Source: SAR92 bacterium MED-G29
GTDB lineage: Bacteria > Pseudomonadota > Gammaproteobacteria > Pseudomonadales > Porticoccaceae
NCBI GenBank assembly: GCA_002457245.1
Contig: NTJY01000011.1
Coordinates: forward strand, 1 to 32,951
Length of the DNA: 32,951 nucleotides
Direction of reading: 5' to 3'
Under the pieces are notes generated by a model that made no database searches, was not told the DNA's origin, and saw nothing but the letters and a program-made list of their open reading frames with translations. How positions within the stretch are numbered: position 1 is the stretch's first letter; each line of letters begins with the position of its first letter. The translations under genes and the position numbers were made by a program. Below, in pieces: positions 16,335-32,951 of the stretch.

Positions 16335-18002
16335 TTAGAAGAGACCAACAATTTCCCCATTATCACCAATATCTATATTGTTGGCAGCTGGCACTCTCGG
16401 GAGGCCGGGCATTGTCATTATATCGCCGCAAACCACGACGATGAATCCGGCACCAGCTGACAGGCGTACCTCTCGAATCGCCATAACATGATTATTTGGC
16501 GCACCCTTGAGATTTGGATCAGTGGAAAAACTATATTGGCTTTTAGCGATGCAAACTGGGAAGTGGCCATATCCTGATTTTTGCAACATCGTTATTTGAT
16601 CCCGAATCTTTTTATCAGCAATGATGTCTTCAGCTCGATAAAGCCTTGTTGCAATTGTTTTGACTTTATCCCACAGAGACATTTCATCAGGGTAAAGGGG
16701 GGCAAAGTTAGCGTGACCACGGTCTACCAGTTCAACCACCTCACGAGCGAGACTTTCTGTACCGGCACCTCCATTGGACCAGTGAGTACAATCAACCGCC
16801 TTCACTCCGTTTGATTCAGCGATTTGCTTAATCATAGCAATTTCTGCATCGGTATCAGTAACAAACCGGTTAATCGCTACAACTACAGGCACTCCAAACG
16901 ATTTTACGTTTTCGATATGTCGAACAAGATTCGAACACCCCTCTTGAACTGCTGCAACGTTTTCCTCGCTCAAATCATCTTTGGCTACATTACCGTGCAT
17001 TTTGAGAGCCCGGACGGTGGCAACAATAACTGCAGCATCTGGGCTCAGACCTGCATTACGACACTTAATATTAAAGAATTTCTCCGCTCCAAGGTCTGCT
17101 CCAAATCCTGCCTCTGTTACAACATAATCAGCCAACTTGAGGCCTGCTTTGGTCGCAATAACCGAGTTACATCCGTGTGCGATATTTGCAAACGGACCTC
17201 CGTGTATTATGGCGGGATTGTTTTCCAGTGTTTGAACTAAATTTGGTGCTAGAGCATCTTTTAATAGAACTGCCATGGCACCAATACCTTCAATTTGACT
17301 CGCAAGAACAGGTTGGTGATCTCTCGTGTAGGCTACAACAATTTTGTTAAGCCGATTTTTTAAGTCATCTAGATCGGTTGCTAAACAAAAAATCGCCATT
17401 ATTTCAGATGCTACTGTAATGTCATAACCATCCTGTCGCGGGAATCCATTTCCTGGACCTCCGAGGCCGCAATTAATGCTTCTAAGAGCGCGATCATTCA
17501 TATCAAGGACTCGTTTCCATTGAATTCTGCGCGCATCAATTTCGAGATTGTTACCCCAATGGATATGGTTGTCTATAAGGGCTGAGAGGAGATTATGTGC
17601 GGCACTTATGGCATGGAAGTCACCCGTAAAGTGTAGATTAATATCCTCCATTGGCACAACTTGAGCATAACCACCGCCCGCTGCACCCCCTTTCATGCCG
17701 AAGCAGGGTCCAAGACTTGGTTCTCTGAGGCAAACAATAGACTTTTTCCCTATTCTATTTAGGCCATCGGTTAAGCCGACAGAGGTTGTAGTTTTGCCTT
17801 CACCTGCTGGGGTTGGAGTGATTGCAGTCACGAGAATCAATTTTCCATCAGGGCGATCTGCCAGTGAATCTAGGTAGTCTGGATTTAATTTGGCTTTTGT
17901 ATGACCAAAAGCAATAATAGCTGATTCTGGGATACTTAATTTTTTAGCTACGTCGGTGATCGGTTTCATCTTAGCTTGACGGGCAATTTCGATATCACTC
18001 AT
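16335..18002 (-). CDS. fhs: Formate-tetrahydrofolate ligase
   Basis: The 555-residue protein matches the usual length of this cytosolic enzyme, which interconverts formate, THF and ATP with 10-formyl-THF, ADP and phosphate. Seen are the ATP site [44 protein letters not shown], the substrate loop after [11 protein letters not shown], and the C-terminal [15 protein letters not shown]. An AAGGA ribosome-binding site lies eight bases before the ATG. It is divergent from the dehydrogenase gene at 18253 and shares with it a region holding outward-facing repeat pairs. In this setting it probably runs from 10-formyl-THF to formate with ATP gain, disposing of methyl groups taken from methylated amines; that direction is inference. 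Confidence 0.97.
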
Positions 18003-18078
18003 TCTTCTTTTCCTTGCGTCATATTGGAGCTAGTTCTTCGGTCAACATCTTGTTTAAACTGAGCCCTTGTTGGATTTC

Positions 18079-18111
18079 TCGGACCGTCAATCGCTGTCCC
18101 AAAAACGACGA
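18079..18111 (-). promoter_or_regulatory. Candidate AraC-family operator pair facing fhs
   Basis: Read on the minus strand, TCGTCGTTTTTG (18111-18100) is followed exactly 21 bp later by TTGACGGTCCGA (18090-18079). The shared core is TnGWCG. The same order and spacing (TTGTCG then TTGACG, 21 bp) is seen upstream of soxB. A 21-bp period places both half-sites on one face of the helix, as is usual for AraC-family activators. The second half-site starts 88 bp before the fhs ATG. The second copy is weaker than the first. Confidence 0.5.
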
Positions 18112-18139
18112 AAAAGTGTGCTGTAAATTATTATTATTT

Positions 18140-18172
18140 TTGACGTTTTTGAGTACAGGACTGTCGTAACTG
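18140..18172 (+). promoter_or_regulatory. Candidate AraC-family operator pair facing the dehydrogenase gene
   Basis: TTGACGTTTTTG (18140-18151) and CTGTCGTAACTG (18161-18172) are spaced exactly 21 bp and point towards the gene at 18253, as a near mirror image of the pair that faces fhs. The downstream half-site overlaps the -35 position of the best -10 element, the class II arrangement of AraC-type activators. The second half-site starts 92 bp before the ATG. Confidence 0.5.
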
Positions 18173-18190
18173 TAGCTTATCTAGTATGAT
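18162..18190 (+). promoter_or_regulatory. Candidate activator-dependent promoter of the dehydrogenase gene
   Basis: A good -10 hexamer TATGAT (18185-18190) lies 17 bp after a poor -35 (TGTCGT, 18162-18167) that is itself part of the downstream operator half-site. A poor -35 covered by an activator site is what an AraC-type activated promoter would show. It predicts transcription start near 18197. Confidence 0.4.
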
Positions 18191-18252
18191 TTTGGCAGTT
18201 AGACTTTACACTCAAAATCATAAATAGTTTTATCTATTTGAGTCCTCCTTTT

Positions 18253-20766
18253 ATGAAGAAAAGCGCAAAGGTCGTTGTTGTCGGTGGTGGTGTGGTTGGT
18301 GTTAGCACTCTCTATCATTTGGCAAAAAAAGGTTGGACCGATGTTGTCCTTGTAGAGAGAAAGGAATTAACCTCAGGATCTACCTGGCATGCTGCCGGAT
18401 TACTACCCTTGTTTAATATGAGCTATTCGGTGGGTAAGTTGCATCAGTACTCTGTTAATTTTTATCACGAACTAGAGGAAGAAACTGGCCAAAATGTTGG
18501 TTTCAGTGTCGTCTCAAATATTCGTTTAGCCTCAACTGAAGATAGGATGGATGAATATCGTTACTATTCTGGGGTTGCTCAAACAGTGGGTGTAGAGGTT
18601 AATTTCCTCACTCCTGAGCAGGTGAAAGAAGCTTGGCCAATGAGTAATATCGATGGACTTATTGGCGCTATTCAACACCCTGATGATGGGTATATCCAAC
18701 CCGCTGATTTAACTCAGGCACTCGCAAAGGGCGCAAGATCCAGAGGCGCAGAAATCTACCGAAATACTACCGTAGAGGGTTTAGACCAACAAACAGATAA
18801 TACTTGGATTGTTAGGACAGACAAGGGAGATATTCATTGTGAGCATGTAGTGTCATGCACTGGGAATTTTGCTAGAAAAACTGGACAGATGGTTGGATTA
18901 GATATTCCCGTAATTCCTGTAGAACATCAATATATTGTTACTGACCCTCATCCTGAAATTTTAGAGCGAAAAGCTGCGGGTTTGCCCGAGCAGGCGGTCC
19001 TGCGAGATTCAGATGCCGGCTATTATTTACGTGAGGAAGCGGGAGGCATGATCCTGGGGCCTTATGAGGAAAATGCGCCATGCTGTTATGTCGATGGCCC
19101 CAGTGCTGAGTCTGAATATGAGCTGTTTAATGGAGATCTTGATCGTCTAATGCCGCATGTTGAAGCATGTATGGAAAGGGTGCCTGCCTTTGCTGAAGTA
19201 GGTGTTAAAACTATCTATAACGGTGCCATCGCGTATACTCCTGATGGAAATCCCATTGTGGGGCCGGCCTGGGGTTTGAACAATTTTTGGCTTAACGAGG
19301 GCCATAGTTTTGGCATTACCGCTGCTGGTGGCGCCGGTTGGCAGCTTGCTGAATGGATTGTTGACGGAGAGCCAACTGTAGATATGATGGGTGTAGACCC
19401 ACGTCGTTTTGGTCCTTATGCCTCTCGTGGTTACTTGCGTACTAAGAATGAAGAAGCCTATGACCATGTCTTCAAAAATCATTATCCTGATGAGGAGCGA
19501 AGTGCAGCTCGACCTTTAAAGACATCTCCCTGCTATGAGCGAATGAGGAAGTTAGGTGCGGTCTTTGGAAGTGTTTATGGTTGGGAGCGACCCAATTGGT
19601 TTGCTCCTCTTGATTATCAGTTGTCTGATCAGGATTTAGATAAACCAGAAGTATTATGGAATAAAAATCACTCCGCGCCTTTACCAGATGGACGTGTCGT
19701 CGAGAAAAATTCATTCAGACGATCAAATTATTTTGACTTTGTGGGCGATGAGTGCCGACATGTCCATGAGCATGTTGGTGTTCTTGATATGTCCGCTTTT
19801 TCGAAGGCGACGGTGTCTGGCCGGGGGGCCGACGAATGGCTCAACAGCATCGTAGCAAATAATGTTCCCAAGGGTGTTGGTCGCATTGGCTTATGCCATA
19901 TGTTGTCACTTAATGGTGGGGTGCGCGCGGAATTCACCATCTATAAACGGGCAGAAAATAGTTTTTACCTTGTTTTTGCAGGTGCAAGTGAGCGTCATGA
20001 CTGGGATTATCTCACTAAGCTTGCTCCTAAAGATGGATCGGTTACATTGCAAAAAATTACAACTCAGATGGGTGTATTAGTCCTAGCGGGTCCAAAATCA
20101 AGAGATGTATTACAAAAACTGACCGATACTGACTTATCTAATCATAACTTCAAGTGGTTAAGTGGAAAATCAATTAACGTTGGTTATGCTCAAGCCGAGG
20201 CGTTGAGGGTTAACTTTGTTGGAGAGCTGGGATGGGAGCTTCATCATCCTATTGAAATGCAGAACTATATTTTCGATGAGTTGATGCGGGTAGGCTCCGA
20301 ATTTAACATTAAACCTTTTGGTATTCGAGCAATGGATTCTATGCGAATTGAGAAGTCCTATCGGCTTATCCCTCGAGAAATGTCAATTGAATATTCAGCA
20401 CTGGAGTCTGGCCTACATCGTTTTGTTAAGCTCGACAAAGCCTGCGGTTTTGTAGGTAAAGCAGGCCTGTCTGCATGGCAGAAAAAGGGATTTAACAATA
20501 CCTTTGTTACCTTAGAAGTGCATGGCATCACTGACGCTGACGCCCGTGGCTCTGAAGGAATTTATAAAAATGGCGAACTAATTGGCCGTGCAACTTCCGG
20601 AGGATTTGGTTTTAGAGTCAATAAGTCGCTAGCACTTGGAATGGTCCTAAGCAATTATGCTATTGAAGGTGCAGAGTTAGAAATTGAAATACTTGGGCAA
20701 CGACATAGGGCGACTGTTATACCAGAGTCAGCGTTTGATGCGGAGAACTTGGCCTTACGAAGCTGA
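18253..20766 (+). CDS. Dimethylglycine/sarcosine dehydrogenase-type flavoprotein with GcvT domain
   Basis: The 837-residue protein has an N-terminal FAD-binding oxidase domain (VVGGGVVGVS at 9-18), SGSTWHAAGLLP with H46 at the place of the covalent FAD-linked histidine of mammalian dimethylglycine dehydrogenase, a linker (FAO_M-like) domain after about residue 385, and a C-terminal aminomethyltransferase (GcvT) domain from about 440 (HVGVLDMSAFSK, GPKSRDVL, NFVGELGWELHHP, AMDSMRIEKSYR). Such enzymes oxidise N-methyl groups and deliver formaldehyde to THF as 5,10-methylene-THF, passing electrons to ETF or oxygen. Next to a betaine-type methyltransferase and sox genes, dimethylglycine is the likely substrate; sarcosine is the alternative. 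A TTG at 18238 would add five residues; I prefer the ATG at 18253, though neither start has a clear ribosome-binding site. Confidence 0.85.
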   Translation: MKKSAKVVVVGGGVVGVSTLYHLAKKGWTDVVLVERKELTSGSTWHAAGLLPLFNMSYSVGKLHQYSVNFYHELEEETGQNVGFSVVSNIRLASTEDRMDEYRYYSGVAQTVGVEVNFLTPEQVKEAWPMSNIDGLIGAIQHPDDGYIQPADLTQALAKGARSRGAEIYRNTTVEGLDQQTDNTWIVRTDKGDIHCEHVVSCTGNFARKTGQMVGLDIPVIPVEHQYIVTDPHPEILERKAAGLPEQAVLRDSDAGYYLREEAGGMILGPYEENAPCCYVDGPSAESEYELFNGDLDRLMPHVEACMERVPAFAEVGVKTIYNGAIAYTPDGNPIVGPAWGLNNFWLNEGHSFGITAAGGAGWQLAEWIVDGEPTVDMMGVDPRRFGPYASRGYLRTKNEEAYDHVFKNHYPDEERSAARPLKTSPCYERMRKLGAVFGSVYGWERPNWFAPLDYQLSDQDLDKPEVLWNKNHSAPLPDGRVVEKNSFRRSNYFDFVGDECRHVHEHVGVLDMSAFSKATVSGRGADEWLNSIVANNVPKGVGRIGLCHMLSLNGGVRAEFTIYKRAENSFYLVFAGASERHDWDYLTKLAPKDGSVTLQKITTQMGVLVLAGPKSRDVLQKLTDTDLSNHNFKWLSGKSINVGYAQAEALRVNFVGELGWELHHPIEMQNYIFDELMRVGSEFNIKPFGIRAMDSMRIEKSYRLIPREMSIEYSALESGLHRFVKLDKACGFVGKAGLSAWQKKGFNNTFVTLEVHGITDADARGSEGIYKNGELIGRATSGGFGFRVNKSLALGMVLSNYAIEGAELEIEILGQRHRATVIPESAFDAENLALRS

Positions 20767-20907: not shown

Positions 20908-22461
20908 ATGACTGAGAGAAGCGGTAGACGAAGAGCAGGCAGAGAGGGTGGCGGCAGAGATGCTCGACGCGAAGCTCGTGCGAACGCTGTGGCTAAAACT
21001 ACACCTTTCATTGAACGCAAAATACCTTACATGGAGTACATGGATGAAGAGAGTCTCCAAATCATTGAGGATAATGCTGACATTATCTTGGAGGAGATTG
21101 GGATAGATTTTTTAGATGATCCTGAAGCCCTGGAAATGTGGAAGAACGCTGGGGCTGATGTTCAGGGCACCCGAGTGCGCTTTCCTAAAGGATTATGTCG
21201 AACTATTATTCAGGCAACAGCTCCAAAAGAATTTATTCAACATGCGCGTAATCCTGAACGCAGCACAATTATTGGTGGAAAAAGAACCGTGCTCGTTCCC
21301 GCCTATGGATCACCGTTTGTCCATGATATTGATCAAGGCCGCCGCTATGCAACGATTGAGGATTTCAATAATTTTGTAAAGCTAGCGTATATGGCTCCGG
21401 GTCTTCATCATTCTGGAGGAACAGTGTGCGAGCCTGTGGATTTGCCGGTCAATAAACGACATTTCGATATGGTGTATTCGCACTTTAAGTACAGTGACAA
21501 ACCCTTGATGGGCTCGGTGACTCATTATGAGCGTGCCCAAGATACCGTCGATATGGCAAAGCTAGTATTCGGGAATGAATTTGTTGACCAGAATTGTGTA
21601 TTGACCAGTCTGATCAACGTTAATTCCCCAATGACCTACGATGGCACTATGCTTGGCTCTTTAAAGGTGTATGCCAAAAATAATCAGGCTACTGTAGTCT
21701 CTCCATTTATTCTTGCAGGTGCAATGTCTCCGGTGACTGCGGCTGGCACTGTCACACAAATTCTTGCTGAGGCGCTGGCAGGAATTGCTTTCACTCAACT
21801 TTGCCGTCCAGGAGCCCCCGTAGTATTTGGTACGTTTGCTGCAGCTGTATCTATGGCATCAGGCGCGCCAACATTTGGAACACCTGAACCAAGTCAAATA
21901 CTATACGCTGCTGCGGCGCTGGCCCGACGACTTGGAGTTCCCTTTAGAAGTGGCGGGGGATTATGCGGCTCTAAACTTCCCGATGCCCAAGCTGCTTATG
22001 AGGCCGCTAATACCTTACAAACTGCATCACTGGCGGGTGTCAATTTTATGCTGCACACCGCTGGATGGTTAGAGGGTGGACTTGCGATGGGCTATGAAAA
22101 ATTTATCATGGATTGTGACCAAGCTAGCATGATTGAGGTACTGCTAGGAGGGATGGATATGTCGGAGAATGGTCAAGGTCTCTCAGCTGTCAGAGAAGTC
22201 GGCCCAGGAAAGCACTACTTGGGATCAGCTCATACGCTTCACAATTTTGAAACAGCATTTTATCGCTCGACAGTTGCTGACAATAATAGTTATGAGCAAT
22301 GGACCGCCGATGGAGCGCTTGATACGGCACAGAGAGCTAATGGCTTGTGGAAAAAGATGTTGAATGAATACCAAGCGCCAGCAATTGATGTGGCTGTTGA
22401 TGAAGCGCTTATAGATTTTATAGCTCGACGAAAGAGCTCATTTGCAGATAGAGACTACTAA
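20908..22461 (+). CDS. MttB-family corrinoid methyltransferase without pyrrolysine (glycine-betaine-type)
   Basis: The 517-residue protein belongs to the MttB (trimethylamine methyltransferase) superfamily, a TIM-barrel group that moves a methyl from a quaternary or tertiary amine to Co(I) of a partner corrinoid protein. Seen are YMDEESLQIIEDNADIILEE, RVRFPKGL, GSPFVHDIDQGRRYAT, GTFAAAVSMASGAPTFGTPE, SGGGLCGSKLPDAQAA and GLSAVREVGPGKHYLGSAHT. The frame is open with no internal TAG, so it is a non-pyrrolysine member like Desulfitobacterium MtgB (glycine betaine) or Eubacterium MtpB/MtcB, not a trimethylamine enzyme. Glycine betaine is the best guess from the downstream dimethylglycine- and sarcosine-type enzymes. 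Residues 4-24 hold nine arginines (SGRRR at 5-9), a tail outside the barrel. TGGAAG lies seven bases before the ATG. The corrinoid gene follows after 26 bases. Confidence 0.88.
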   Translation: MTERSGRRRAGREGGGRDARREARANAVAKTTPFIERKIPYMEYMDEESLQIIEDNADIILEEIGIDFLDDPEALEMWKNAGADVQGTRVRFPKGLCRTIIQATAPKEFIQHARNPERSTIIGGKRTVLVPAYGSPFVHDIDQGRRYATIEDFNNFVKLAYMAPGLHHSGGTVCEPVDLPVNKRHFDMVYSHFKYSDKPLMGSVTHYERAQDTVDMAKLVFGNEFVDQNCVLTSLINVNSPMTYDGTMLGSLKVYAKNNQATVVSPFILAGAMSPVTAAGTVTQILAEALAGIAFTQLCRPGAPVVFGTFAAAVSMASGAPTFGTPEPSQILYAAAALARRLGVPFRSGGGLCGSKLPDAQAAYEAANTLQTASLAGVNFMLHTAGWLEGGLAMGYEKFIMDCDQASMIEVLLGGMDMSENGQGLSAVREVGPGKHYLGSAHTLHNFETAFYRSTVADNNSYEQWTADGALDTAQRANGLWKKMLNEYQAPAIDVAVDEALIDFIARRKSSFADRDY

Positions 22462-22487: not shown

Positions 22488-23189
22488 ATGTCAGATGAAG
22501 ACGATATTATTTTGGCTGAGTTACCAGATGAAGAGCTGGTATTACAGATGCACGATGATCTCTATGATGGTTTAAGAGAGGAGATCATGGAGGGAACAGA
22601 TATCCTTTTAGCAAGGGGTTGGTCTGCTGAGCGAGTTCTGGGGGAGGCCTTGGTGGACGGCATGACAGTTGTTGGAATTGACTTCAGAGATGGAATTCTT
22701 TTTGTTCCAGAGGTATTGCTCGCCGCTAACGCGATGAAAGGCGGGATGGAAATATTGAAGCCATTACTAGCTGAAACTGGAGCAAAGCCGGTAGGAACAA
22801 TGGTTATTGGCACGGTCAAGGGTGATATCCATGATATTGGTAAAAATTTAGTCTCGATGATGATGGAAGGTGCTGGATTTGAAGTATTTGATATAGGTAT
22901 AAATAATTCAGTTGACGAGTACATTGCGGCACTTGAGAGACATAAGCCAGATATTCTAGGGATGTCAGCTCTTCTCACAACTACTATGCCCTATATGAAG
23001 GTGGTTATTGATGCTCTATCTGACAAAAATTTGCGCGACAAATATATTGTCATGGTGGGCGGTGCGCCACTTAATGAGGAATTTGGAGCTGCTGTTGGAG
23101 CCGATGCCTATTGCCGCGATGCCGCTGATGCAGCCACTACAGCGATTAGGTTAGTTAGTGAGCGTAGAGAACTAGAAATGACGGCCTGA
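22488..23189 (+). CDS. Cognate corrinoid (B12-binding) protein
   Basis: The 233-residue protein has the methyltransferase-associated helical cap domain (about 20-95) and a Rossmann-like B12-binding domain (about 100-225). The cobalt-binding motif is GDIHDIG with D113-x-H115-xx-G118; SALLTTTMPYM (about 160) and MVGGAPLNEEFG carry the other two B12 motifs. It would accept the methyl from the MttB-like protein and give it to THF through the MtgA-like enzyme. The N-terminus (first 24 residues) has ten Asp/Glu and no Lys/Arg, in contrast to the Arg-rich ends of its three expected partners. The stop overlaps the start of the DUF1638 gene (TGATG). Confidence 0.93.
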   Translation: MSDEDDIILAELPDEELVLQMHDDLYDGLREEIMEGTDILLARGWSAERVLGEALVDGMTVVGIDFRDGILFVPEVLLAANAMKGGMEILKPLLAETGAKPVGTMVIGTVKGDIHDIGKNLVSMMMEGAGFEVFDIGINNSVDEYIAALERHKPDILGMSALLTTTMPYMKVVIDALSDKNLRDKYIVMVGGAPLNEEFGAAVGADAYCRDAADAATTAIRLVSERRELEMTA

Positions 23190-23818
23190 TGACCCCCGTA
23201 AAAAGTAATGAGAGCAGTCAGCCTAAACCCATTTTGATACTTGCCTGTGGGGCCCTAGCTCACGATATCATTCAGTTACAAAAACTTAATAATTGGAATC
23301 ACTTGCACCTAAAATGCCTTGATGCAGAGCTTCACAATAAGCCCCAACTAATTGCAGGGAAACTGCGCACTGCGATAAGGCATCACAAATCTCAGTATGA
23401 AAATATTTTTGTTGCTTATGCTGATTGTGGCTCTGGGGGTCAAATAGACAGGTTACTTGAAGAAGAGGGAATAGAGCGTTTGCCAGGAGCACACTGCTAT
23501 TCTTTTTTTGCAGGAGAGGATAGGTTTCAAAAAATTGCAGAACAGGAGCTGGGAACATTTTATTTAACCGATTTTTTAGTAAAACATTTTGATCGAATTA
23601 TGATTAAGGGATTGAAGTTGGATCTGTACCCAGAATTAAGAGATCAGTTTTTTGGAAATTATACGAGGCTAGTCTACCTATCCCAAGAAGTGGATATGGA
23701 TTTGTTAGATCAAGCCAAGAGGGCAGCAGCTATGTTAGGCCTTTCATTTGAGCATCAACCATGTGGATATGGTGACCTGCAGGTCGGCCTTGAATTACAG
23801 GTTCTTAAATTCCGCTAA
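23189..23818 (+). CDS. DUF1638 protein in the corrinoid methyltransferase operon
   Basis: The 209-residue protein matches the DUF1638 pattern: ILACGALAHDI near the start, VAYADCGSGGQID, RLPGAHCYSFFAG and FYLTDFLVKHFDR. Function is unknown. It has conserved-looking Cys and His positions (C20 with H25, C80, H102-C103) that could bind a metal or a corrinoid, and no membrane segment. Its start overlaps the corrinoid-protein stop, so the two are probably translated together; the context suggests a role in loading, repairing or sensing the corrinoid protein. That role is inference. Confidence 0.75.
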   Translation: MTPVKSNESSQPKPILILACGALAHDIIQLQKLNNWNHLHLKCLDAELHNKPQLIAGKLRTAIRHHKSQYENIFVAYADCGSGGQIDRLLEEEGIERLPGAHCYSFFAGEDRFQKIAEQELGTFYLTDFLVKHFDRIMIKGLKLDLYPELRDQFFGNYTRLVYLSQEVDMDLLDQAKRAAAMLGLSFEHQPCGYGDLQVGLELQVLKFR

Positions 23819-23852: not shown

Positions 23853-24149
23853 ATGCAAAAAATTTTAGTATATTGGCGAGATATTCCCGCTCAGGTGCTA
23901 GTGAAGCGCGGAAGGGAGAGAGGGAAAGCTATTCTTAGTCATCGTTTCCAGGCTGCTATTGATCGAGCGGCAATGAGGGCTGGAAAAGGGGGTAGCGAGG
24001 AATATCTGGCAGATTGGAGAAGAGAAACAACTCCATTAGAGGCAGAAGGTACGCCGCAATCGATTGCTGATCAGTTTGCTAAGGAAATAGAGCAACTATT
24101 CACCGATGAGGATATAAAAACTCTAGTAAAAGCAAAGGGCTTAAAGTAA
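23853..24149 (+). CDS. Small 'virulence factor'-family protein of unknown function
   Basis: The 98-residue basic protein fits the small family usually labelled 'virulence factor' or scaffold protein: ILVYWRDIPAQV at the start, an Arg/Lys-rich middle (RGRERGKAILSHRF), then a helical C-terminus (ADQFAKEIEQLF). It has no signal peptide or membrane segment. The label does not fit this place; between corrinoid and folate genes it more likely assists the methyl-transfer pathway. Gaps to both neighbours are short (34 and 64 bases), so it is probably in the same transcript. Confidence 0.6.
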   Translation: MQKILVYWRDIPAQVLVKRGRERGKAILSHRFQAAIDRAAMRAGKGGSEEYLADWRRETTPLEAEGTPQSIADQFAKEIEQLFTDEDIKTLVKAKGLK

Positions 24150-24213: not shown

Positions 24214-25152
24214 ATGGCGCTAAGTTTGGCCGATGAAAAAAAAGCATTAACTGATTTGATGTCAAGAACTACATTAGAGGTCACGCCGGGTGGAGCGGCT
24301 AAGGTGGATGACTTTAGTCAAATCGTTCGAGCAGAATGTACTATTTATGTAACCTTTTTGCCTGGCTCTGATTTTGTTGACACCCTGAACACAGTTCGTC
24401 GTTTAAAAACGGAGGGTTTTAATCCCGTACCGCATTTTGCTGCTCGTTCAATCGTTTCAGCTGAGATTTTGGAGCAAAACTTGCAGGCATTACAGAATGA
24501 GGGGATTACCGAGGGATTATTAATTGGTGGAGGCGTTGATCAACCCCTGGGAGAGTTTTCTGCATCAATTGATGTGCTAAATACAGGGTTATTCGAAAGT
24601 TATGGGTTTAAAAAAATGGGGCTTGCAGGCCACCCCGAGGGCAGTCCTGATATTCCAGAGCATGAGTGTACTTTGGCGATTCAAAAAAAGAATGATTACG
24701 CTAAAAATTCGTCAATGGAATTATATTTAGCAACTCAATTTGTGTTTGAGGCGGCTCCAGTATTATCTTGGGAGAGAAAGATTCGTCAGCAGGGAAATCG
24801 TCTACCGATCTATGTTGGAATTCCCGGTCTTGCAACTATTAAAACCCTAATAAAACACGCTACTCACTGCGGAGTGGGGCCCTCTATGCGCATGCTTACG
24901 CGCAATCCAATGAATATGTTGCGTTTAACTTTAAAGGACTCATTTTTAGGACCATATATTAACGCACCCTCATCAGATCCAAGTGGATTACTGCGTGATC
25001 TAGTCGCTGGGTTAGCTGCTGATCCTAATTGCCTAATTGAGCGGTGCCACTTGTATCCTTTGGGTGGACTTAAGAAATCTGCAGATTGGATGTATAAGGT
25101 ACAGGATGGGAAATTTGAATTCGCCAATCAAAAGTTTACCACCTATGATTAA
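24214..25152 (+). CDS. MetF-like methylenetetrahydrofolate reductase
   Basis: The 312-residue protein is a divergent member of the MetF TIM-barrel flavoprotein family, which interconverts 5-methyl-THF and 5,10-methylene-THF. Matching points are E22 in TLEVTP (place of the catalytic Glu), PVPHFAAR with H74, GGGVDQP with D109, LAGHPEGSPDIPEHE, and ATQFVFEA (TQF 174-176). In this operon it probably runs in the oxidative direction, turning methyl-THF made by the next gene product into methylene-THF; the electron acceptor is not evident. GGAG lies eight bases before the ATG. The housekeeping metF is probably elsewhere. Confidence 0.82.
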   Translation: MALSLADEKKALTDLMSRTTLEVTPGGAAKVDDFSQIVRAECTIYVTFLPGSDFVDTLNTVRRLKTEGFNPVPHFAARSIVSAEILEQNLQALQNEGITEGLLIGGGVDQPLGEFSASIDVLNTGLFESYGFKKMGLAGHPEGSPDIPEHECTLAIQKKNDYAKNSSMELYLATQFVFEAAPVLSWERKIRQQGNRLPIYVGIPGLATIKTLIKHATHCGVGPSMRMLTRNPMNMLRLTLKDSFLGPYINAPSSDPSGLLRDLVAGLAADPNCLIERCHLYPLGGLKKSADWMYKVQDGKFEFANQKFTTYD

Positions 25153-25215: not shown

Positions 25216-26109
25216 ATGACTACCACGATCTTAAGTTCTGCTACTCGAGAGGTAAAAATTGGTTTTGATGAACCCTTTGTGGTTATTGGAGAGCGAATAA
25301 ATCCAACTGGCAGAAAAATACTAGCCGAAGAAATGAAGTCTGGAGATTATAGTCGAGTCGAATCTGATGCTATTGCTCAAGTATCTGCGGGCGCACAAAT
25401 GTTAGACGTGAATGCCGGTATTCCTCTGGCAGATGAGCCAAAGATTTTGGGTGAGGCCATTAAATTGGTTCAGGCGATTACTGACGTCCCGATCAGTATT
25501 GATTCGTCAATTATTGAGGCGCTTGAGGTTGGCCTGTCCGTTTATCAGGGGAAAGCGTTAGTGAATTCAGTTACGGGGGAGGATGAGGTGCTGGAGCGAG
25601 TTCTTCCTTTAGTTAAAAAGTATGGAGCTGCTGTCGTTGCGATTTCTAATGACGAGACTGGTATTTCCGAGGATCCAAACGAACGGTTCTCCGTTGCGAA
25701 AAAAATAGTGGAGCGTGCGGCTGACTACGGAATTCATTACAGCGATGTCGTTGTTGATCCCCTCGTAATGCCCATAGGTGCTATAAATACTGCGGGTCTA
25801 CAGGTGATGCATGTGGTTCGACGTTTGCGGGACGAATTAAAAGTGAATACAACCTGCGGTGCATCAAATGTAAGTTTTGGGTTACCAAATCGCAATGGTA
25901 TCAATAGTGCATTTCTGACGATGGCGATGGGTGCAGGAATGACCTCTGCAATTACAAGTCCTTTGCACTTAGAGGTTATGCAGGCAGTAAGAGGAGCTGA
26001 TGTGATGCTGGGCAAAGATCCCAATTGTGCTAATTGGATTAAAGCGTATCGAGAGCCTTCTGCTGACGGAGCACGATCGGGTCGATCTGGGCGGCGTCGG
26101 TCTCGGTAA
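25216..26109 (+). CDS. Methylcobalamin:tetrahydrofolate methyltransferase (MtgA-like, pterin-binding domain)
   Basis: The 297-residue protein has the pterin-binding DHPS-like TIM barrel found in MtgA, MtvA and the MetH folate domain. Seen are FVVIGERINPTGRK, GAQMLDVNAGIP, PISIDSSIIEALE, NSVTGE, VVVDPLVMPIGA, and TTCGASNVSFGLPNR. It would move the methyl from the corrinoid protein to THF. The barrel ends near residue 282 and is followed by a 13-residue basic tail (285-297) with six arginines and an SGRRR motif (291-295), similar to the N-terminal tail of the MttB-like protein. The next gene, for the corrinoid activator, begins 27 bases later. Confidence 0.9.
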   Translation: MTTTILSSATREVKIGFDEPFVVIGERINPTGRKILAEEMKSGDYSRVESDAIAQVSAGAQMLDVNAGIPLADEPKILGEAIKLVQAITDVPISIDSSIIEALEVGLSVYQGKALVNSVTGEDEVLERVLPLVKKYGAAVVAISNDETGISEDPNERFSVAKKIVERAADYGIHYSDVVVDPLVMPIGAINTAGLQVMHVVRRLRDELKVNTTCGASNVSFGLPNRNGINSAFLTMAMGAGMTSAITSPLHLEVMQAVRGADVMLGKDPNCANWIKAYREPSADGARSGRSGRRRSR

Positions 26110-26136: not shown

Positions 26137-28167
26137 ATGGGTGAAAAGCAGGTAAAAGTCGTATTTACTCCCTCTGGTCGGAGAGGGAGTTTCCCTGAGA
26201 AGACTCCGTTATTAGATGCGGCGCGAAGTCTTGGGGTTGATATAGACTCGGTCTGTGGTGGCCGAGGCCTTTGTGGTAGATGCCAGATTATTTGTGCAGA
26301 GGGTGAATTTCCTAAGCATCAAATTTCTTCTAAAAAAGAACATTTATCTCCTATAAGCGAGACTGAAAGGAACTACAGTCAACGGAAAAAGTCATTGGCT
26401 GAGGGGCGTCGTTTGAGTTGCCATACCCTTCTACTCGATGACTGCGTCATTGATGTGCCTCCCGGCAGTCAAGTTCATCGGCAGGTTGTTAGAAAAGAGG
26501 CTGAATATCGAGATATAGAGCTGGATACATCTACTCGATTATATTGTGTTGACGTTCCTGAGCCAGACATGGAGATACCCAAAGGAGATCTTCAACATTT
26601 ATTTGATGCCTTGGAAGATAGCTGGGGTTTGGTCGACTTGACTTGCGATATTAATCTTTTGAATGATCTTCAACCTTTGCTAAAGGCAAACTCTCGAACT
26701 TTGACCGTGGCGGTTCATAGGAATCGAACAATTATTGCCCTCTGGTCAGGATTTCATGACATTGCTTATGGTGTCGCAGTGGATGTTGGATCCACAACTG
26801 TCGCGGCACATATGTGTGATCTTTCAAGCGGAGAAATTTTGGCCAGCTCTAGTTTGATGAATCCGCAAATCCGGTTTGGCGAAGATTTAATGAGCCGAGT
26901 TTCATACGTAATGATGCATCCTGAGGGCGCGAAAGAAATGACGAGCGCGATTCGTGAGGCTCTAAATACTCTATTTGATGGCGTTGTCAAACAAGTTAAT
27001 GGGAGTATTTCCGATATTCTTGAAATCACCCTTGTTGCAAACCCAATCATGCATCACTTACTTTTGGGAATAGATCCTGTTGAGCTTGGTGGTGCACCAT
27101 TTGCCCTAACGATTGCTTCTGCGGTTGAGGTTCCTGCTCGTGAGCTAGATTTGAGAATTAACAATGGTGGAAGGCTGTACGTCCTGCCATGCATAGCTGG
27201 GCATGTTGGTGCTGATACTGCTGGTGTTATTTTATCTGAAGAGCCTCATCAACAAGATGCTATGACCTTGCTTGTAGATGTTGGTACCAATGCTGAAATT
27301 GTTTTGGGCGATAAAAATCGATTGCTAGCGTGCTCAAGTCCCACTGGGCCAGCTTTCGAAGGAGCGCAGATTAGCTCTGGCCAACGCGCTGCTGCGGGAG
27401 CTATTGAACGAGTCAGAATTAATCCTGAAACATTGGAGCCGAGGTTTAAAGTGATTGGTTCAGACTTATGGTCGAATCAATCAGACTTCCAAGAGGAAAT
27501 AATTAAGTTTGGTATTACTGGTATTTGTGGGTCTGGGATCATTGAAGTTGTTGCAGAAATGTATTTGGCGGGAGTGATTACTGTAGACGGTATTATTGAT
27601 GGATCATTAATCAATAAAACTGCAAGAGTTGTTGAAGATGGGCGCACTTTCTCCTATGTATTGCATGTTGATGAAAATGAGACCAATAATTTACAAAGTC
27701 AATCGTCTATATTAATTACACAAAATGATATACGCCAAATTCAACTGGCGAAAGCCGCTCTCTATGCTGGCGTGAAACTGCTAATGGACAAATTAGCTAT
27801 AGAAAAAATAGATCGAATAAGGCTTGCTGGAGCATTTGGTAGTCATATTAGTGTTCGACACGCCATGATACTTGGATTGATTCCAGACTGTGTTCTTGAT
27901 CAGGTATCTTCCGCTGGTAATGCTGCGGGTACGGGCGCGCGCATTGCATTGCTTAATCAGCATTCAAGAGGAATGATAGAAAAATTAGTTATGGAGATTG
28001 AGAAAATTGAAACCGCCTTGGAGCCTAGGTTTCAGGAATATTTTGTGGATGCAATGGCTTTTCCTAATAAGACTGATACCTTTGCTAACCTATTTTCAGT
28101 TGTTAAACGGCCACTCGAAAAAAAGGTGCTGTCTGCAAAAAGTGGTAGGAAGCGTAGAAGAAAATAA
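26137..28167 (+). CDS. Reductive activator of corrinoid protein (RACo/RamA-like, ferredoxin + DUF4445 ASKHA domain)
   Basis: The 676-residue protein has an N-terminal plant-type [2Fe-2S] ferredoxin domain (about 5-115; C40-x5-C46-x2-C49 and C95) and a long ASKHA ATPase-type DUF4445 domain (YGVAVDVGSTTVAAHMCD near 210, LLVDVGTNAEIVLGDKNR, SSPTGPAFEGAQISSG, GICGSGIIEVVAEM, IRLAGAFGSHI). Proteins of this type use ATP to drive reduction of inactive Co(II) corrinoid to Co(I). It is the repair partner of the corrinoid protein at 22488. The last eleven residues form a basic tail with SGRKRRR (669-675). No dedicated reductase for its cluster is visible. It ends 111 bases before the first regulator. 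Confidence 0.9.
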   Translation: MGEKQVKVVFTPSGRRGSFPEKTPLLDAARSLGVDIDSVCGGRGLCGRCQIICAEGEFPKHQISSKKEHLSPISETERNYSQRKKSLAEGRRLSCHTLLLDDCVIDVPPGSQVHRQVVRKEAEYRDIELDTSTRLYCVDVPEPDMEIPKGDLQHLFDALEDSWGLVDLTCDINLLNDLQPLLKANSRTLTVAVHRNRTIIALWSGFHDIAYGVAVDVGSTTVAAHMCDLSSGEILASSSLMNPQIRFGEDLMSRVSYVMMHPEGAKEMTSAIREALNTLFDGVVKQVNGSISDILEITLVANPIMHHLLLGIDPVELGGAPFALTIASAVEVPARELDLRINNGGRLYVLPCIAGHVGADTAGVILSEEPHQQDAMTLLVDVGTNAEIVLGDKNRLLACSSPTGPAFEGAQISSGQRAAAGAIERVRINPETLEPRFKVIGSDLWSNQSDFQEEIIKFGITGICGSGIIEVVAEMYLAGVITVDGIIDGSLINKTARVVEDGRTFSYVLHVDENETNNLQSQSSILITQNDIRQIQLAKAALYAGVKLLMDKLAIEKIDRIRLAGAFGSHISVRHAMILGLIPDCVLDQVSSAGNAAGTGARIALLNQHSRGMIEKLVMEIEKIETALEPRFQEYFVDAMAFPNKTDTFANLFSVVKRPLEKKVLSAKSGRKRRRK

Positions 28168-28278
28168 AAATGCTTTTTTTACTATCCAGTCTTGGCATAT
28201 ACTCGCCAAAAAGAAGTGATAAAAAAATTAAACTTCTATCTAATAAATTTAGAACTACTTGAATTTGGAGCTTCCAAT

Positions 28279-29268
28279 ATGGCAGATGTAGTCGACTACT
28301 CTGCTCTGAACGCCGATGCCGATCCCGCTCTGCATGTCAGTTTTTTATTGCTTCCGGAATATACGTTAAGTGCTTTTGCAAATGCCGTGGGAATTTTGCG
28401 GATGGCTAATCGCCTTAGGGATAAAACTCTCTACACGTGGTCGCTTCATAGTCTGGATGGAGAACCTCTTATCTCCAGCTCTGGCTTGGAAATTTCACTT
28501 GATGATAGCCTTGAAAATACTGATCATGCAAATATCTTAATGGTTTGTGGTGGCTACTCCATAAAAAAATATTGTGATAAGAGGTTGGTCGATGGGCTTA
28601 GAAAAGTAGCCAAACGTAAAATTCCAATTGGAGGTATCTGCACAGGCAGTTATGCGTTGGCATTTGCTGGGCTCCTTGATGGCTATCGCTGCACTATCCA
28701 CTGGGAAAATATTGCAAGTTTTAGAGAAGAATTTCCAAAATTAGATATTTCTTCTAGTCTGTTTGTGATTGATCGAGATCGTTACACGTGTTCTGGAGGC
28801 ATCAGCTCAATTGATTTGATGCTTAATTTAATTGCTAGTATTCATGGGCATCAATTAGTCCAACAAATCTCCGAACAATTTACCTGCGATCGCGTTCGTA
28901 CTGAAAAGGATGCTCAGAGAGCGCCATTAAAGTATCTTATTGGAGCAAGTCAGCCAAAATTGGTCGATGCGGTAACTTTGATGGAGAGTAATATTGAAGA
29001 GCCGCTGACCTTAGATGAGGTTGCCGCATATGTGGGTATATCAAGACGTCAACTAGAACGTTTGTTTAACCGATATCTTCATTGCGCACCCTCACGTTAC
29101 TATCTGGAGCTTAGACTGTCTCGGGCCAGACTTTTACTTTTGCAAACTTCAATTCCGGTAATAGATGTAGCTATTAGTTGTGGGTTTTCTACCGCGCCCC
29201 ACTTCAGTAAGTGCTACAGCGACCTGTATGGAAAACCTCCAAGTAGTGAGCGTCGCGTGCTGAGATAG
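28279..29268 (+). CDS. GlxA/GbdR-type AraC-family transcriptional regulator
   Basis: The 329-residue protein has an N-terminal DJ-1/PfpI-like ligand-sensing domain (about 18-200; VSFLLLPEYTLSAFANAV, and IGGICTGSYALAFAGLLDG with C121 at the nucleophile-elbow place) and a C-terminal AraC double helix-turn-helix (about 235-325; LDEVAAYVGISRRQLERLF, PSRYYLELRLSRARLLL, AISCGFSTAPHFSKCY). This layout and HTH resemble GbdR, the activator of glycine betaine and dimethylglycine catabolism in Pseudomonas; similarity is judged by eye. I chose ATG 28279 because GGAG lies eight bases upstream and the length then equals that of the second regulator; a TTG at 28192 is an alternative. It is convergent with the second regulator. 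Confidence 0.88.
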   Translation: MADVVDYSALNADADPALHVSFLLLPEYTLSAFANAVGILRMANRLRDKTLYTWSLHSLDGEPLISSSGLEISLDDSLENTDHANILMVCGGYSIKKYCDKRLVDGLRKVAKRKIPIGGICTGSYALAFAGLLDGYRCTIHWENIASFREEFPKLDISSSLFVIDRDRYTCSGGISSIDLMLNLIASIHGHQLVQQISEQFTCDRVRTEKDAQRAPLKYLIGASQPKLVDAVTLMESNIEEPLTLDEVAAYVGISRRQLERLFNRYLHCAPSRYYLELRLSRARLLLLQTSIPVIDVAISCGFSTAPHFSKCYSDLYGKPPSSERRVLR

Positions 29269-29273
29269 TAGTT

Positions 29274-30257
29274 TTAATTGCGAAATTCTGTCGGTTTTTG
29301 GCCAAAGGTGTCTCGAAAAGCGCGTGAGAAATGAGCAGTATCAGAAAATCCACAATCTTGACCTATTTCGGTCACAAGACGTCCGGTATTCTTGAGTAGC
29401 CATAAACCATAGCGTAGCCTGATTTTACGATAAAACTTTTGTAGGCTCTCCTTTGTATCTTTGACAAACAAACGTTCAAGTTGTCGCTTAGAAATAGATA
29501 ATCTCGAAGCAATTTCGTCTGAGCTAAGTGGCCTGCTTAAATTCTGTTCCATCAAGATTAAAGCGCGCGCTACCCATTGATTATTTACCTGATAATCGGC
29601 ACTGGGTTGAGGTTGAGGGGCATCGGCTGGTCGAGGGTTGTCCATTACCAAAATTCGTAGGCTTTTTCTTGCCCAGCTTTGTCCTAAATGTCTTTCGATA
29701 ATATAGGCAGCTAGATCTGCGGCAACCGCGCCACCAGCACAAGTAATTCGATCACCATCATCAACAAACAGCTGGTCCGCAACTGGGATTATGTCTGCGA
29801 AACGATCCGTTAGATCTTTATAATGGAACCAGCTCACGCAACAGCGCCTATGGTTCATCAACCCAGCTCGTATCATAACGAAAGAGCCGGTACACAGACC
29901 TATTATTGGCGTGTGGACATCGTTTGCCTCTTGAAGATAATCAACAACGTGTTGACTCCCTTTTAAAGTAGTATCCAACAGCCCGCCTACAACCACTATA
30001 TAGTCGAATCCTGATGGATCACGGTATAGTTCCCAGGGCTTTATCGTAATTCCTGCGCTGGACGTAATGGCTTTTAGATTTGGTCCCATGATGGTCCACT
30101 GACAGTTTATTTGGCGGCTCTTATCACCTTCATCAGCGGCCAAACGAAGTGCATCAACGAATGCTGAGAAAGGAAGTAGAGTGAATCCTGGCATAAGAAC
30201 GAAACCCACTGAGAGGTGAGTAGAGTCAGAGATTACTACTGGTCTATCTAAAGCCAA
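29274..30257 (-). CDS. Second GlxA-type AraC-family transcriptional regulator (TTG start)
   Basis: The 327-residue protein has the same build as its convergent neighbour: a DJ-1/PfpI-like sensing domain (VGFVLMPGFTLLPFSAFVDA, PIIGLCTGSFVMIRAGLM) and an AraC HTH domain (SSDEIASRLSISKRQLERLF, CGFSDTAHFSRAFRDTFG). The two regulators differ clearly in the HTH and sensing regions, so they are paralogues of old standing, not a recent tandem copy. The TTG start at 30257 is supported by AAGGAG eight bases upstream and by the aligned N-terminus. It is divergent from soxB across a 205-base region with repeat half-sites, and may control soxB-D-A and the upstream island. Confidence 0.88.
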   Translation of the reverse strand: MALDRPVVISDSTHLSVGFVLMPGFTLLPFSAFVDALRLAADEGDKSRQINCQWTIMGPNLKAITSSAGITIKPWELYRDPSGFDYIVVVGGLLDTTLKGSQHVVDYLQEANDVHTPIIGLCTGSFVMIRAGLMNHRRCCVSWFHYKDLTDRFADIIPVADQLFVDDGDRITCAGGAVAADLAAYIIERHLGQSWARKSLRILVMDNPRPADAPQPQPSADYQVNNQWVARALILMEQNLSRPLSSDEIASRLSISKRQLERLFVKDTKESLQKFYRKIRLRYGLWLLKNTGRLVTEIGQDCGFSDTAHFSRAFRDTFGQKPTEFRN

Positions 30258-30265
30258 AAACTTAT

Positions 30266-30271
30266 CTCCTT
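30266..30271 (-). promoter_or_regulatory. Ribosome-binding site deciding a TTG start
   Basis: On the minus strand this reads AAGGAG, eight bases before TTG at 30257. It is one of the strongest ribosome-binding sites in the island and supports TTG as the start of the second regulator. Confidence 0.7.
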
Positions 30272-30311
30272 AAGTCGCTTAAGTTCAATTAATTAGGTAA
30301 TTTAGTGTCCA

Positions 30312-30323
30312 ATTTAACGACAT
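30312..30323 (-). promoter_or_regulatory. Possible single operator half-site facing the second regulator
   Basis: The minus strand reads ATGTCGTTAAAT, sharing TGTCGTT with the half-sites found upstream of soxB and fhs. No second copy is found 21 bp away on either side, so this is weak; it may be a low-affinity autoregulatory site. Confidence 0.25.
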
Positions 30324-30364
30324 TTTAGCCTTAAATCTGTAATTTTGAATAAAGATTATTGTTT

Positions 30365-30397
30365 TTGTCGTTTTTAGATGGAAGATTGACGTTTTTA
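30365..30397 (+). promoter_or_regulatory. Candidate AraC-family operator pair facing soxB
   Basis: TTGTCGTTTTTA (30365-30376) and TTGACGTTTTTA (30386-30397) are direct repeats matching at 11 of 12 bases and spaced exactly 21 bp. They lie between the divergent second regulator and soxB, 77 bp (second half-site start) before the soxB ATG. The downstream copy could also act as a -35 (TTGACG), but no good -10 is seen at the right distance. The same motif pair occurs twice at 18079-18172. Confidence 0.6.
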
Positions 30398-30462
30398 TCC
30401 TAGCAATTAAGTTGTCAATGCTGGTTCAATCGCGTGCTTGACTAAATTCTGCTCCCAAAATA

Positions 30463-31713
30463 ATGAAAAGATATTCTGGCTTTAGCCTTTTTAAAAATGC
30501 GTTCAGCTACCATGAAAATTGGGAGAAGGTCTGGCGGAGTCCTGTTCCAAAGAAAGAATATGATGTAATTGTTGTAGGTGGTGGTGGACATGGATTGGCC
30601 ACCGCATATTATCTTGCTAAGGAGCATGGCATAACAAATGTTGCAGTTATCGAGAAAGGCTATTTGGGCGGCGGAAATACTGCTAGGAATACCACAATTA
30701 TTCGGTCAAATTACCTTTGGGATGAGGCGGCGCAGCTTTATGAGCTGTCTCTTAAACTTTGGGAAGGATTAAGTAAAGAGTTGAACTACAACGTCATGTT
30801 TAGCCAGCGTGGCGTCCTTAATCTAGGTCATAATCTCCAAGACATGCGTGACATTGAAAGACGAGTTAATGCAAACCGCCTTAATGGCATTGACGGTGAG
30901 GTTGTCACACCTGAAAGAATTAAAGAAATAGCACCTCTAATAAATATTTCTCCAAACTGCAGGTATCCCATATTGGGAGCATCTTGGCAGCCTCGAGGTG
31001 GCACTGCACGGCATGACGCAGTTGCCTGGGGTTATGCACGTGCCGCTGATGCACTTGGAGTGGATATGATCCAGCAGACTGAAGTAATAGGCATTCGTAG
31101 AAAAGATGGCGCAGTTGTGGGTGTGGAAACTAGTAAGGGATTCATTGGCGCTCGGAAGGTTGCCTGCGTAACTGCTGGGAGTTCGGGGTTAGTGGCCGGA
31201 ATGGCGGGATTGAGGCTGCCTGTGGAGTCTAGACCCCTCCAGGCTTTGGTGTCAGAGCCAGTAAAGCCATGCTTGGATACAGTGGTTATGTCTAATGCTG
31301 TGCATGGCTATGTTAGTCAATCTGATAAGGGAGACTTGGTTATTGGTGCTGGAGTTGACAGCTATAACGGTTATGGTCAGAGAGGTTCTTTTAATATCAT
31401 CGAACATACTGTCCAAGCGATATGTGAGCTTTTTCCTGCCTTCAGTAGAATCCAAATGAATCGTCAATGGGGTGGAATCGTGGATACTTGCCCAGATGCC
31501 TGTCCCATCATTAGTAAAACGTCAGTGGATGGACTTTATTTTAATTGTGGATGGGGTACGGGGGGATTTAAGGCGACTCCTGGATCAGGCTTTGTTTTTG
31601 CGGATACGGTAGCGAATGATAGGCCTCATCCCCTCGCAGCCGCATTTAATATTGGTCGATTCAATACAGGTGCATTAATTGATGAGCATGGTGCTGCTGG
31701 TGTTGCCCATTAA
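30463..31713 (+). CDS. soxB: Sarcosine oxidase subunit beta
   Basis: The 416-residue flavoprotein is the catalytic subunit of heterotetrameric sarcosine oxidase, which demethylates sarcosine to glycine and passes formaldehyde to THF in the cytosol. Seen are the typical start [15 protein letters not shown], the FAD loop [20 protein letters not shown] (37-56), [33 protein letters not shown] with H184 at the place of the covalently FMN-linked histidine, and [17 protein letters not shown] at the end. It is the first gene of a soxB-soxD-soxA operon. There is no clear ribosome-binding site before the ATG. Confidence 0.96.
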
Positions 31714-31743
31714 ATTTTCTTTTAGACTCAGGTACAGCTCTCT

Positions 31744-32034
31744 ATGCTACTAATCTATTGTCCGCATTGCCTCGAGTATCGAGAGGAGGAAGAGTTCAGT
31801 TATGGAGGTGAGGCCCATATTAGCCGACCTGTTGATCCGGAGAAGTTAACCGACGAGGAGTGGGGCGATTATTTATTTTTCCGTAAAAATCCGAAAGGAA
31901 TTCATCATGAAATGTGGTTTCACAGTTCTGGGTGTAGAAGGTACTTTAATGTAACTCGAGATACCTTAACATACGAAATTTTAGAGACTTATGAGGTTGG
32001 TTGTACTCCCAAAATTACGGGAATCAGCTCATGA
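31744..32034 (+). CDS. soxD: Sarcosine oxidase subunit delta
   Basis: The 96-residue protein is the small zinc-binding subunit of heterotetrameric sarcosine oxidase. The expected zinc ligands C6 and C9 (CPHC), H60 and C64 (HSSGC) are present, followed by RRYFNVTRDT. It lies 30 bases after soxB and its stop overlaps the soxA start (ATGA). Confidence 0.96.
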   Translation: MLLIYCPHCLEYREEEEFSYGGEAHISRPVDPEKLTDEEWGDYLFFRKNPKGIHHEMWFHSSGCRRYFNVTRDTLTYEILETYEVGCTPKITGISS

Positions 32035-32951
32035 CACAAGTAAATCGACTTCCAAATCTTAGCCGAATTAATACAAGTAAGATCATTAACTTTACTTTTA
32101 ACAGTAAACCCTACCAAGGATTTGCTGGCGACAGCCTTGCGTCTGCTCTATTAGCTAATGGGATCAATGTGGTTGGTCGCAGCTTCAAATATGCGCGGCC
32201 TCGCGGAATTGTAGGTCATGGGATGGAGGAGCCTAATGGGATTATACAACTAGGTTCTGGTGCAGCGACTGTGCCCAATTTAAAGGTGACCCAGATAGAG
32301 CTCTATGAGGGCCTTGAAGCATCTAGTGTAAATGGTTGGCCCAGTGTTAATTATGACGTTATGAGCTGGCTCGGTGCTTTTGGACGATTAATGCCTCCGG
32401 GTTTCTATTATAAAACATTTATGTACCCACAAAAGCTATGGATGACCTATGAGCATTTTATTCGTAAAGCAGCAGGCCTCGGTAAGTCTCCTGTAGAGGA
32501 CGATCCAGATTCATATGACACCATTAATCAGCATTGCGACGTCCTTGTAGTTGGAGCTGGTCCTTCGGGGTTAGTGGCAGCGCTAGAGGCTGGTCTCGCA
32601 GGTGCTCGTGTAATTATTGCTGACGAGCAAAGTGAATTTGGAGGAACATTGCTTGCATCCAATGAAAAATTTGATGGTCAGTCAGCCAATGATTGGTTAG
32701 TGGCTATTTTTTCTCAATTAACCTCTTTGAGAAATGTTAAATGTCTAACTCGTAGCACTGTATTTGGCTACTACGATCATAATTTTTTAACAATTTTGGA
32801 GCGACGCACCGACCATCTTGGCATAACAGCCAGTTCGGGACCTCGGCAGTGCATGCATCGGGTAAGAGCCAAGCAGGTTGTGTTGGCTACGGGAGCCCTT
32901 GAGCGGCCTTTGGTCTTTGCTCACAATGATATTCCAGGCGTTATGCAAGCC
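32031..32951 (+). CDS. soxA: Sarcosine oxidase subunit alpha (N-terminal part, cut by window edge)
   Basis: The frame is open for 307 codons from ATG 32031 to the window end, so about the first third of this roughly 1000-residue subunit is present. It begins MTQVNRLPNLSRINTSK, then a ferredoxin-like fold without cluster cysteines (PYQGFAGDSLASALLANG, GRSFKYARPRGIVG), then an NAD-binding dinucleotide fold (CDVLVVGAGPSGLVAALEAG, ADEQSEFGGTLL) and VVLATGALERPLVF. The alpha subunit binds NAD and holds the THF-linked part in its C-terminal GcvT-like domain, which lies outside the window. soxG would be expected next. Confidence 0.95.
   Translation, partial: MTQVNRLPNLSRINTSKIINFTFNSKPYQGFAGDSLASALLANGINVVGRSFKYARPRGIVGHGMEEPNGIIQLGSGAATVPNLKVTQIELYEGLEASSVNGWPSVNYDVMSWLGAFGRLMPPGFYYKTFMYPQKLWMTYEHFIRKAAGLGKSPVEDDPDSYDTINQHCDVLVVGAGPSGLVAALEAGLAGARVIIADEQSEFGGTLLASNEKFDGQSANDWLVAIFSQLTSLRNVKCLTRSTVFGYYDHNFLTILERRTDHLGITASSGPRQCMHRVRAKQVVLATGALERPLVFAHNDIPGVMQA

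Follow-up and report, generated by a model that had tools for sequence, protein, structure and literature searches.

Which methylated amine is broken down by the corrinoid-dependent gene cluster that runs to one end of contig NTJY01000011.1 of SAR92 bacterium MED-G29 (Gammaproteobacteria; Porticoccaceae), and by which route do the methyl groups leave it? The window analysed here is this whole contig (32,951 bases). It belongs to a genome of 1.30 Mb in 53 contigs which is rated 80% complete, and gene absences in this genome are therefore weak evidence throughout. A preliminary description of the same DNA had proposed a route from glycine betaine via dimethylglycine (DMG) and sarcosine to glycine, with the methyl groups passed onto tetrahydrofolate (THF). 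All gene families it named are found at their places by Pfam and NCBIfam profile scores (Table 1). The route itself is well supported by these families, by four residues of the first methyltransferase assigned to betaine by docking, by GbdR-like regulators and by probable genes leading from carnitine to betaine. Taken together, this gammaproteobacterial locus very probably is an MtgBCD-type cluster for the catabolism of glycine betaine.

The protein expected to take the first methyl group is a member of the MttB superfamily. In the PDB it matches 4yyc (754 bits), 2qne (417 bits), 9yce, named 'glycine betaine methyltransferase' (416 bits), and the trimethylamine methyltransferase 7xcl (114 bits). 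2qne is MtgB of Desulfitobacterium hafniense, for which docking proposed Y94, N199, R309 and H345 as betaine contacts (PMC6855144). The window protein carries Y133, N237, R347 and H383 at these positions; in 2qne all four are placed by one and the same shift in numbering. The comparison with MtgB, one of those the preliminary description had suggested, thus yields identity at all four docked residues. We extended this to tblastn matches of 350 residues or more. All 95 orthologue matches (60% identity or higher) have the complete set of four, which none of the 18 paralogue matches (under 45%) has; no match falls between the two groups. The window itself is one of the 95 and some places are counted repeatedly, hence these are not 95 independent proteins; the most distant are from Sinorhizobium meliloti and Paracoccus (64-65% identity). 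The S. meliloti protein (locus L158) is 65% identical to the window protein and matches the 4yyc entry over all 510 residues with 100%. Its gene is located near bmt and a gene for a glycine betaine/L-proline ABC transporter. Because the docked residues are kept in the orthologue matches and absent from the paralogue matches, and because of the identity to the bmt-linked S. meliloti protein, glycine betaine is the best-supported substrate. Pyrrolysine was considered for this protein and rejected: Rfam PYLIS_3 matches at 21961-22060 with 38.2 bits (cut-off 38), yet the frame is open throughout, so that the match inside a pyrrolysine-free mttB seems to reflect coding homology.

The MttB superfamily includes enzymes for several quaternary amines (PMC8604678; PMC12478193), and one further contig of the same genome (C33; L168, L169) encodes in a row a BCCT transporter, an FAD oxidoreductase, a BKACE protein, a carnitine 3-dehydrogenase (661 bits, over its cut-off of 592) and a gamma-butyrobetaine dioxygenase-like protein (below its cut-off). 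With carnitine and gamma-butyrobetaine genes at hand, the enzyme might prefer another quaternary amine (carnitine, gamma-butyrobetaine, proline betaine or choline), the betaine genes being nearby for other reasons. We consider this improbable, as the carnitine genes look like the carnitine dehydrogenase/BKACE route to betaine, which would make direct demethylation of carnitine unnecessary, and the neighbouring genes for a DMG dehydrogenase-type enzyme and sarcosine oxidase carry on the breakdown of betaine. Moreover the four docked residues agree with those of MtgB, the one enzyme covered by this comparison. The gene row on C33 is a probable feed from carnitine and gamma-butyrobetaine to betaine. 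GbcA was not seen in the 80% complete genome, the sole Ring_hydroxyl_A (PF00848) match reaching 84 bits against a GbcA cut-off of 670.

For betaine as substrate, the following sequence of events can be proposed. The MttB-like protein would transfer the first methyl group to Co(I) of the corrinoid protein, and the MtgA/MtgD-like protein, whose PDB matches include 4o0q and 2yci, would pass it from there to THF. The resulting methyl-THF would be oxidised to methylene-THF by a divergent methylenetetrahydrofolate reductase (MTHFR). The DMG dehydrogenase-type enzyme and sarcosine oxidase may release the second and the third methyl group, respectively, as methylene-THF. Formate-THF ligase (FTHFS), together with a putative FolD, may finally convert the one-carbon units into formate and ATP. 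The DMG dehydrogenase-type enzyme has human DMG dehydrogenase as its top PDB match (621 bits; N,N-dimethylglycine oxidase 326 bits) and retains the stretch WHAAGL in the alignment to the human protein, the histidine of which is presumably the flavin-bearing residue. The sarcosine oxidase had been described as heterotetrameric. Its genes soxB, soxD and the start of soxA are indeed present; soxA runs off the contig end and no soxG could be found in the genome (80% complete), so that the enzyme is incomplete here. Sensing of betaine or DMG would be the task of two GbdR-like regulators.

Table 1. Features of the cluster in the window. The start of the DMG dehydrogenase-type gene is an ATG chosen by us within the longer open reading frame 18238-20766.
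Feature	Position	Strand	Evidence
formate-THF ligase (FTHFS)	16335..18002	-	PF01268 902 bits; NF010030 924 over cut-off 652
dimethylglycine dehydrogenase-type flavoenzyme, GcvT folate domains	18253..20766	+	Pfam DAO+FAO_M+GCV_T+GCV_T_C, one protein
MttB-superfamily methyltransferase without pyrrolysine, MtgB-like	20908..22461	+	517-aa open frame; PF06253 (MTTB) 756 bits
corrinoid protein, MtgC-like	22488..23189	+	PF02310 + PF02607 (B12-binding pair)
DUF1638 protein	23189..23818	+	PF07796 104 bits
PF13769 ('Virulence_fact') small protein	23853..24149	+	PF13769 75 bits
divergent MTHFR, MetF-like	24214..25152	+	7xg9 155 bits over 8-295; PF02219 20.9 bits
methyl-corrinoid:THF methyltransferase, MtgA/MtgD-like	25216..26109	+	Pterin_bind PF00809 104 bits; PRK07535 364 over cut-off 259
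RACo/RamA-type corrinoid reductive activator, 2Fe-2S domain	26137..28167	+	PF14574, PF17651, PF17650, PF00111; PDB 3zyy 305 bits
GbdR-like AraC/DJ-1 regulator, first	28192..29268	+	NF052371 430 bits vs cut-off 480
GbdR-like AraC/DJ-1 regulator, second, more distant	29274..30257	-	PF12833 + PF01965; NF052371 179 bits vs 480
sarcosine oxidase beta soxB	30463..31713	+	TIGR01373 710 over cut-off 529
sarcosine oxidase delta soxD	31744..32034	+	TIGR01374 126 over cut-off 116
sarcosine oxidase alpha soxA, first 307 codons	32031..32951	+	TIGR01372 450 bits, profile 2-307 of 996

From the MttB gene through the first regulator, intergenic spacing ranges from a 1-base overlap up to 64 bases, as expected of an operon. 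The gene list of the preliminary description was real as far as it went; it had omitted RACo, DUF1638, PF13769 and the two regulators. We compared named loci, i.e. the best 80 of 578 MttB matches in named genomes. Among these, the closest MttB proteins are from Porticoccaceae, like-placed bins and HTCC2207, a cultured isolate, mostly with 88-92% identity (two Porticoccaceae matches at 82%), followed by records named Halieaceae (72-83%) and then by other gammaproteobacteria. In 46 of the 80 loci at least 7 kb are available on both sides of MttB, the other 34 being short on one side. With identity thresholds chosen by us for the companion genes, all five of MtgC, DUF1638, PF13769, MtgD and RACo occur in 28 of these 46 full loci, and a close DMG dehydrogenase or SoxB in 26. 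The arrangement is hence not due to chance, and the gene order is common to HTCC2207 and other relatives.

The term 'island', understood as foreign DNA, finds no support, and such an origin was rejected. GC content at third codon positions is even across the cluster (0.335-0.392; a comparison within the cluster, not against the whole genome), and the upstream genes at 13174-14085 and for a GST recur beside the cluster in four other loci (L027, L028, L029 and L031). The GST gene is adjoined by a gene for an FGE-sulfatase-type protein with lipoprotein-like start (14878-15882; PF03781, 248 bits), which likewise precedes the cluster in L029, L030 and L031.

How could such chemistry be sustained in an oxic cell? 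A gene for the 49-kDa subunit of complex I is located at the opposite contig end from the cluster, and both the record names of the relatives and the gene content suggest a marine and aerobic life. The preliminary description regarded this combination as surprising for an aerobe. That view is outdated: Mausz et al. (PNAS 2025, PMC12478193) demonstrated MtgCD-dependent betaine use in aerobic Ruegeria pomeroyi by proteomics and mutants. They also described clusters with these genes side by side in marine alpha-, gamma- and deltaproteobacteria, and homologues in SAR116, SAR324 and SUP05. SAR92 may use compatible solutes (PMC6383258). The terms 'Porticocc', SAR92, HTCC2207, HTCC2080, 'virulence' and PF13769 do not occur in the main text of PMC12478193.

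In the window, RACo together with DUF1638 would return inactive Co(II) to Co(I), as required in an oxic cell. In Phaeobacter inhibens, DUF1638 mutants share the phenotype of genes for B12-dependent methionine synthesis, and across alphaproteobacteria the presence of DUF1638 tracks that of a RamA-like protein; the authors of that study proposed no specific role for it (PMC5764234). With both proteins encoded here, oxygen-sensitive corrinoid chemistry beside complex I is explicable by known repair proteins. The predicted DUF1638 model (pLDDT 90.6) has no fold match in the PDB at E≤0.001, the best being carbamoyltransferases and others with TM below 0.4. Likewise, the confident model of the PF13769 protein (pLDDT 94.7) has no PDB fold match at E≤0.001. 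PF13769 often accompanies the corrinoid operon (33 of the 46 full loci), and its family name 'Virulence_fact' looks misleading in this setting.

A step at which the window differs from many relatives is the proposed oxidation of methyl-THF. A MetF-like gene had been named here, and the protein is indeed an MTHFR homologue. Yet its PF02219 score stays under the Pfam cut-off of 24, and in a tree it falls outside canonical MetF: a split at 99 separates the window group, L080, L105, L154, the homologue of Sphingobium sp. RAC03 and 7xg9 from canonical MetF, mtg-MetF and L061/L073/L077, with weak branching inside the 7xg9 side (43, 69). Among its PDB matches only 7xg9/7xlf are strong, the rest having E-values of 1.2e-5 or worse. 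Judged from its sequence, the window MTHFR is a member of the 7xg9-type lineage. The FAD-independent mycobacterial Mfr (PMC11094777) was dropped as a parent, as only 7xg9/7xlf matched strongly; we assumed that Mfr is contained in the searched PDB copy. All 12 MTHFR sequences compared retain a glutamate that aligns with the catalytic one in known reductases. We take 7xg9 to be S6MTHFR. S6MTHFR of Sphingobium lignivorans SYK-6 oxidises methyl-THF made by the demethylase LigM (PMC12585457; PMC13001107). This module is similar to the one proposed here in that an MTHFR homologue oxidises demethylase-made methyl-THF; it differs in that LigM is a GcvT relative and not corrinoid-dependent.

We further measured the gap between PF13769 and MtgD in 48 named loci with both genes on the same strand. 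It is at least 1.4 kb in 28 loci, about 1 kb in four (L036, L037, L038 and L061) and below 0.3 kb in 16. Judged by eye, the longest frame starts like HTCC2207 MetF in 24 of the 28 wide-gap loci. The HTCC2207 operon MetF, the only wide-gap MetF scanned, reaches 129 bits to PF02219 and is preceded by a DUF5981 gene. L036-L038 carry the window-type MTHFR (63-68% identity). Among 18 other genomes of the same genus, DUF5981 is present in eight and the window MTHFR type in none; DUF5981 was not found in the 80% complete genome of MED-G29 itself. Three congeners (G001, G006, G012) have an MttB match and no DUF5981, their contigs ending at or no more than 280 bases from the match. Our tentative proposal, which we hold with slightly more doubt than belief, is that the pair of DUF5981 and MetF was swapped for a single oxidising, demethylase-linked MTHFR, so that the electrons of methyl-THF would take a different carrier; together with PF13769 this would amount to a remodelled branch for methyl oxidation in aerobic corrinoid methylotrophy. 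A limited literature search found no published account of such a swap. A single origin of it may yet apply, although it is not what a tree from four operon proteins joined end to end shows: there the four swapped loci form no common group, L036-L038 being together (73) and the window apart, with weak branches in between (36-65). Another MTHFR-like lineage, about 25-30% identical to the window MTHFR, is found downstream of MttB or MtgC in some gammaproteobacterial bins (L073, L077, L078, L083).

The direction of the MTHFR reaction deserves separate consideration, as the protein might work in the ordinary reducing direction and supply methyl-THF as a replacement of the housekeeping MetF. It is the sole PF02219 match in its genome, below cut-off, while each of the 18 other genomes has a match over cut-off. 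That genome is incomplete, and the gene sits between PF13769 and MtgD in the slot taken by the operon MetF in many relatives. Moreover, the 7xg9-lineage member of Sphingobium sp. RAC03 adjoins genes for a GcvT C-terminal protein, purU and folD. A reducing role thus seems unlikely, and oxidation of methyl-THF by the divergent MTHFR is what we infer from its lineage and position.

Methyl groups on THF may also serve methionine synthesis. In Ruegeria a shared MtgC and MtgD work in both betaine use and methionine synthesis by a split methionine synthase; mutants in mtgC or mtgD fail to grow on betaine even when methionine is supplied, and about 70% (108/156) of MtgBCD genomes are without MetH (PMC12478193). 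In the MED-G29 genome PF02574, PF02965 and PF01717, representing MtgE, MetH and MetE, are not matched (80% complete). One could therefore envisage a module chiefly for methionine synthesis with betaine breakdown being secondary. We give this very little credence: no MtgE-like gene was found in the window, and the MetH domain PF02965 occurs in 11 of 12 same-genus genomes, among them all nine with an MttB match (one a fragment). Since these MttB-bearing congeners retain the B12 domain of MetH, they could use betaine without any tie to methionine synthesis. For cobalamin synthesis, cobS was detected in one of the 12 congeners and not in the 80% complete MED-G29 genome, so that betaine use would depend on B12 from outside.

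Three known systems are closest to the cluster as a whole. The Ruegeria MtgBCD(E) system, compared by its published description and not by MtgB or MetF2 sequences, shares the MttB-like, corrinoid and pterin-binding proteins, DUF1638, a RamA-like activator, a catabolic MetF2 and co-located DMG/sarcosine genes (PMC12478193). In contrast, the window has no MtgE-like gene and an MTHFR outside ordinary MetF, and MetH is common in the genus. The S. meliloti mtg cluster (CP090106, L158) has mttB, mtgC, DUF1638, PF13769, mtgD and RACo in common with the window. It differs by an MTHFR C-terminal (DUF5981-type) gene and MetF in place of the divergent MTHFR, by mttB on the strand opposite to mtgC-RACo with a formyl transferase gene in between, and by bmt about 6 kb from mttB. 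With MtgBCA of D. hafniense the window shares the proposed chemistry and the four docked residues, whereas that organism is an anaerobe, its MttB is far more distant (2qne against 4yyc) and the marine MtgC lineage is separate from that of the anaerobe (PMC12478193).

Several observations weigh against the assignment. The case for this organism is built on sequence. The betaine residues stem from docking and not from a substrate-bound structure, and the fifth docked position, F353 in D. hafniense and Y in M. vulcani (PMC6855144), is occupied by Gly in the window protein and throughout the 95 matches. As the orthologue matches are interrelated, the uniformity of the four residues is partly due to descent. 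The corrinoid protein stays under both NCBIfam MtgC cut-offs (NF047996, 196 vs 370; NF047995, 166 vs 310) and hence is MtgC-like in role and no member of these families; neither regulator reaches the GbdR cut-off of NF052371. Of the 46 full loci, 18 lack one or more of the five companion genes, and that soxG was not found in the incomplete genome belongs here too. An oxidising role of the MTHFR is further called into question by GG in the window protein where 7xg9 has GD.

The betaine route as such is already known from aerobic marine bacteria. What is added here is the MTHFR in the methyl-THF slot, the co-occurrence of MttB with the B12 domain of MetH in the congeners, and PF13769 as a companion. 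The 2025 picture of B12-dependent betaine demethylation is thereby extended to a co-located cluster shared with HTCC2207, and the proposed MTHFR swap would allow two solutions for methyl-THF oxidation, both placed in one operon slot, to be tested side by side.

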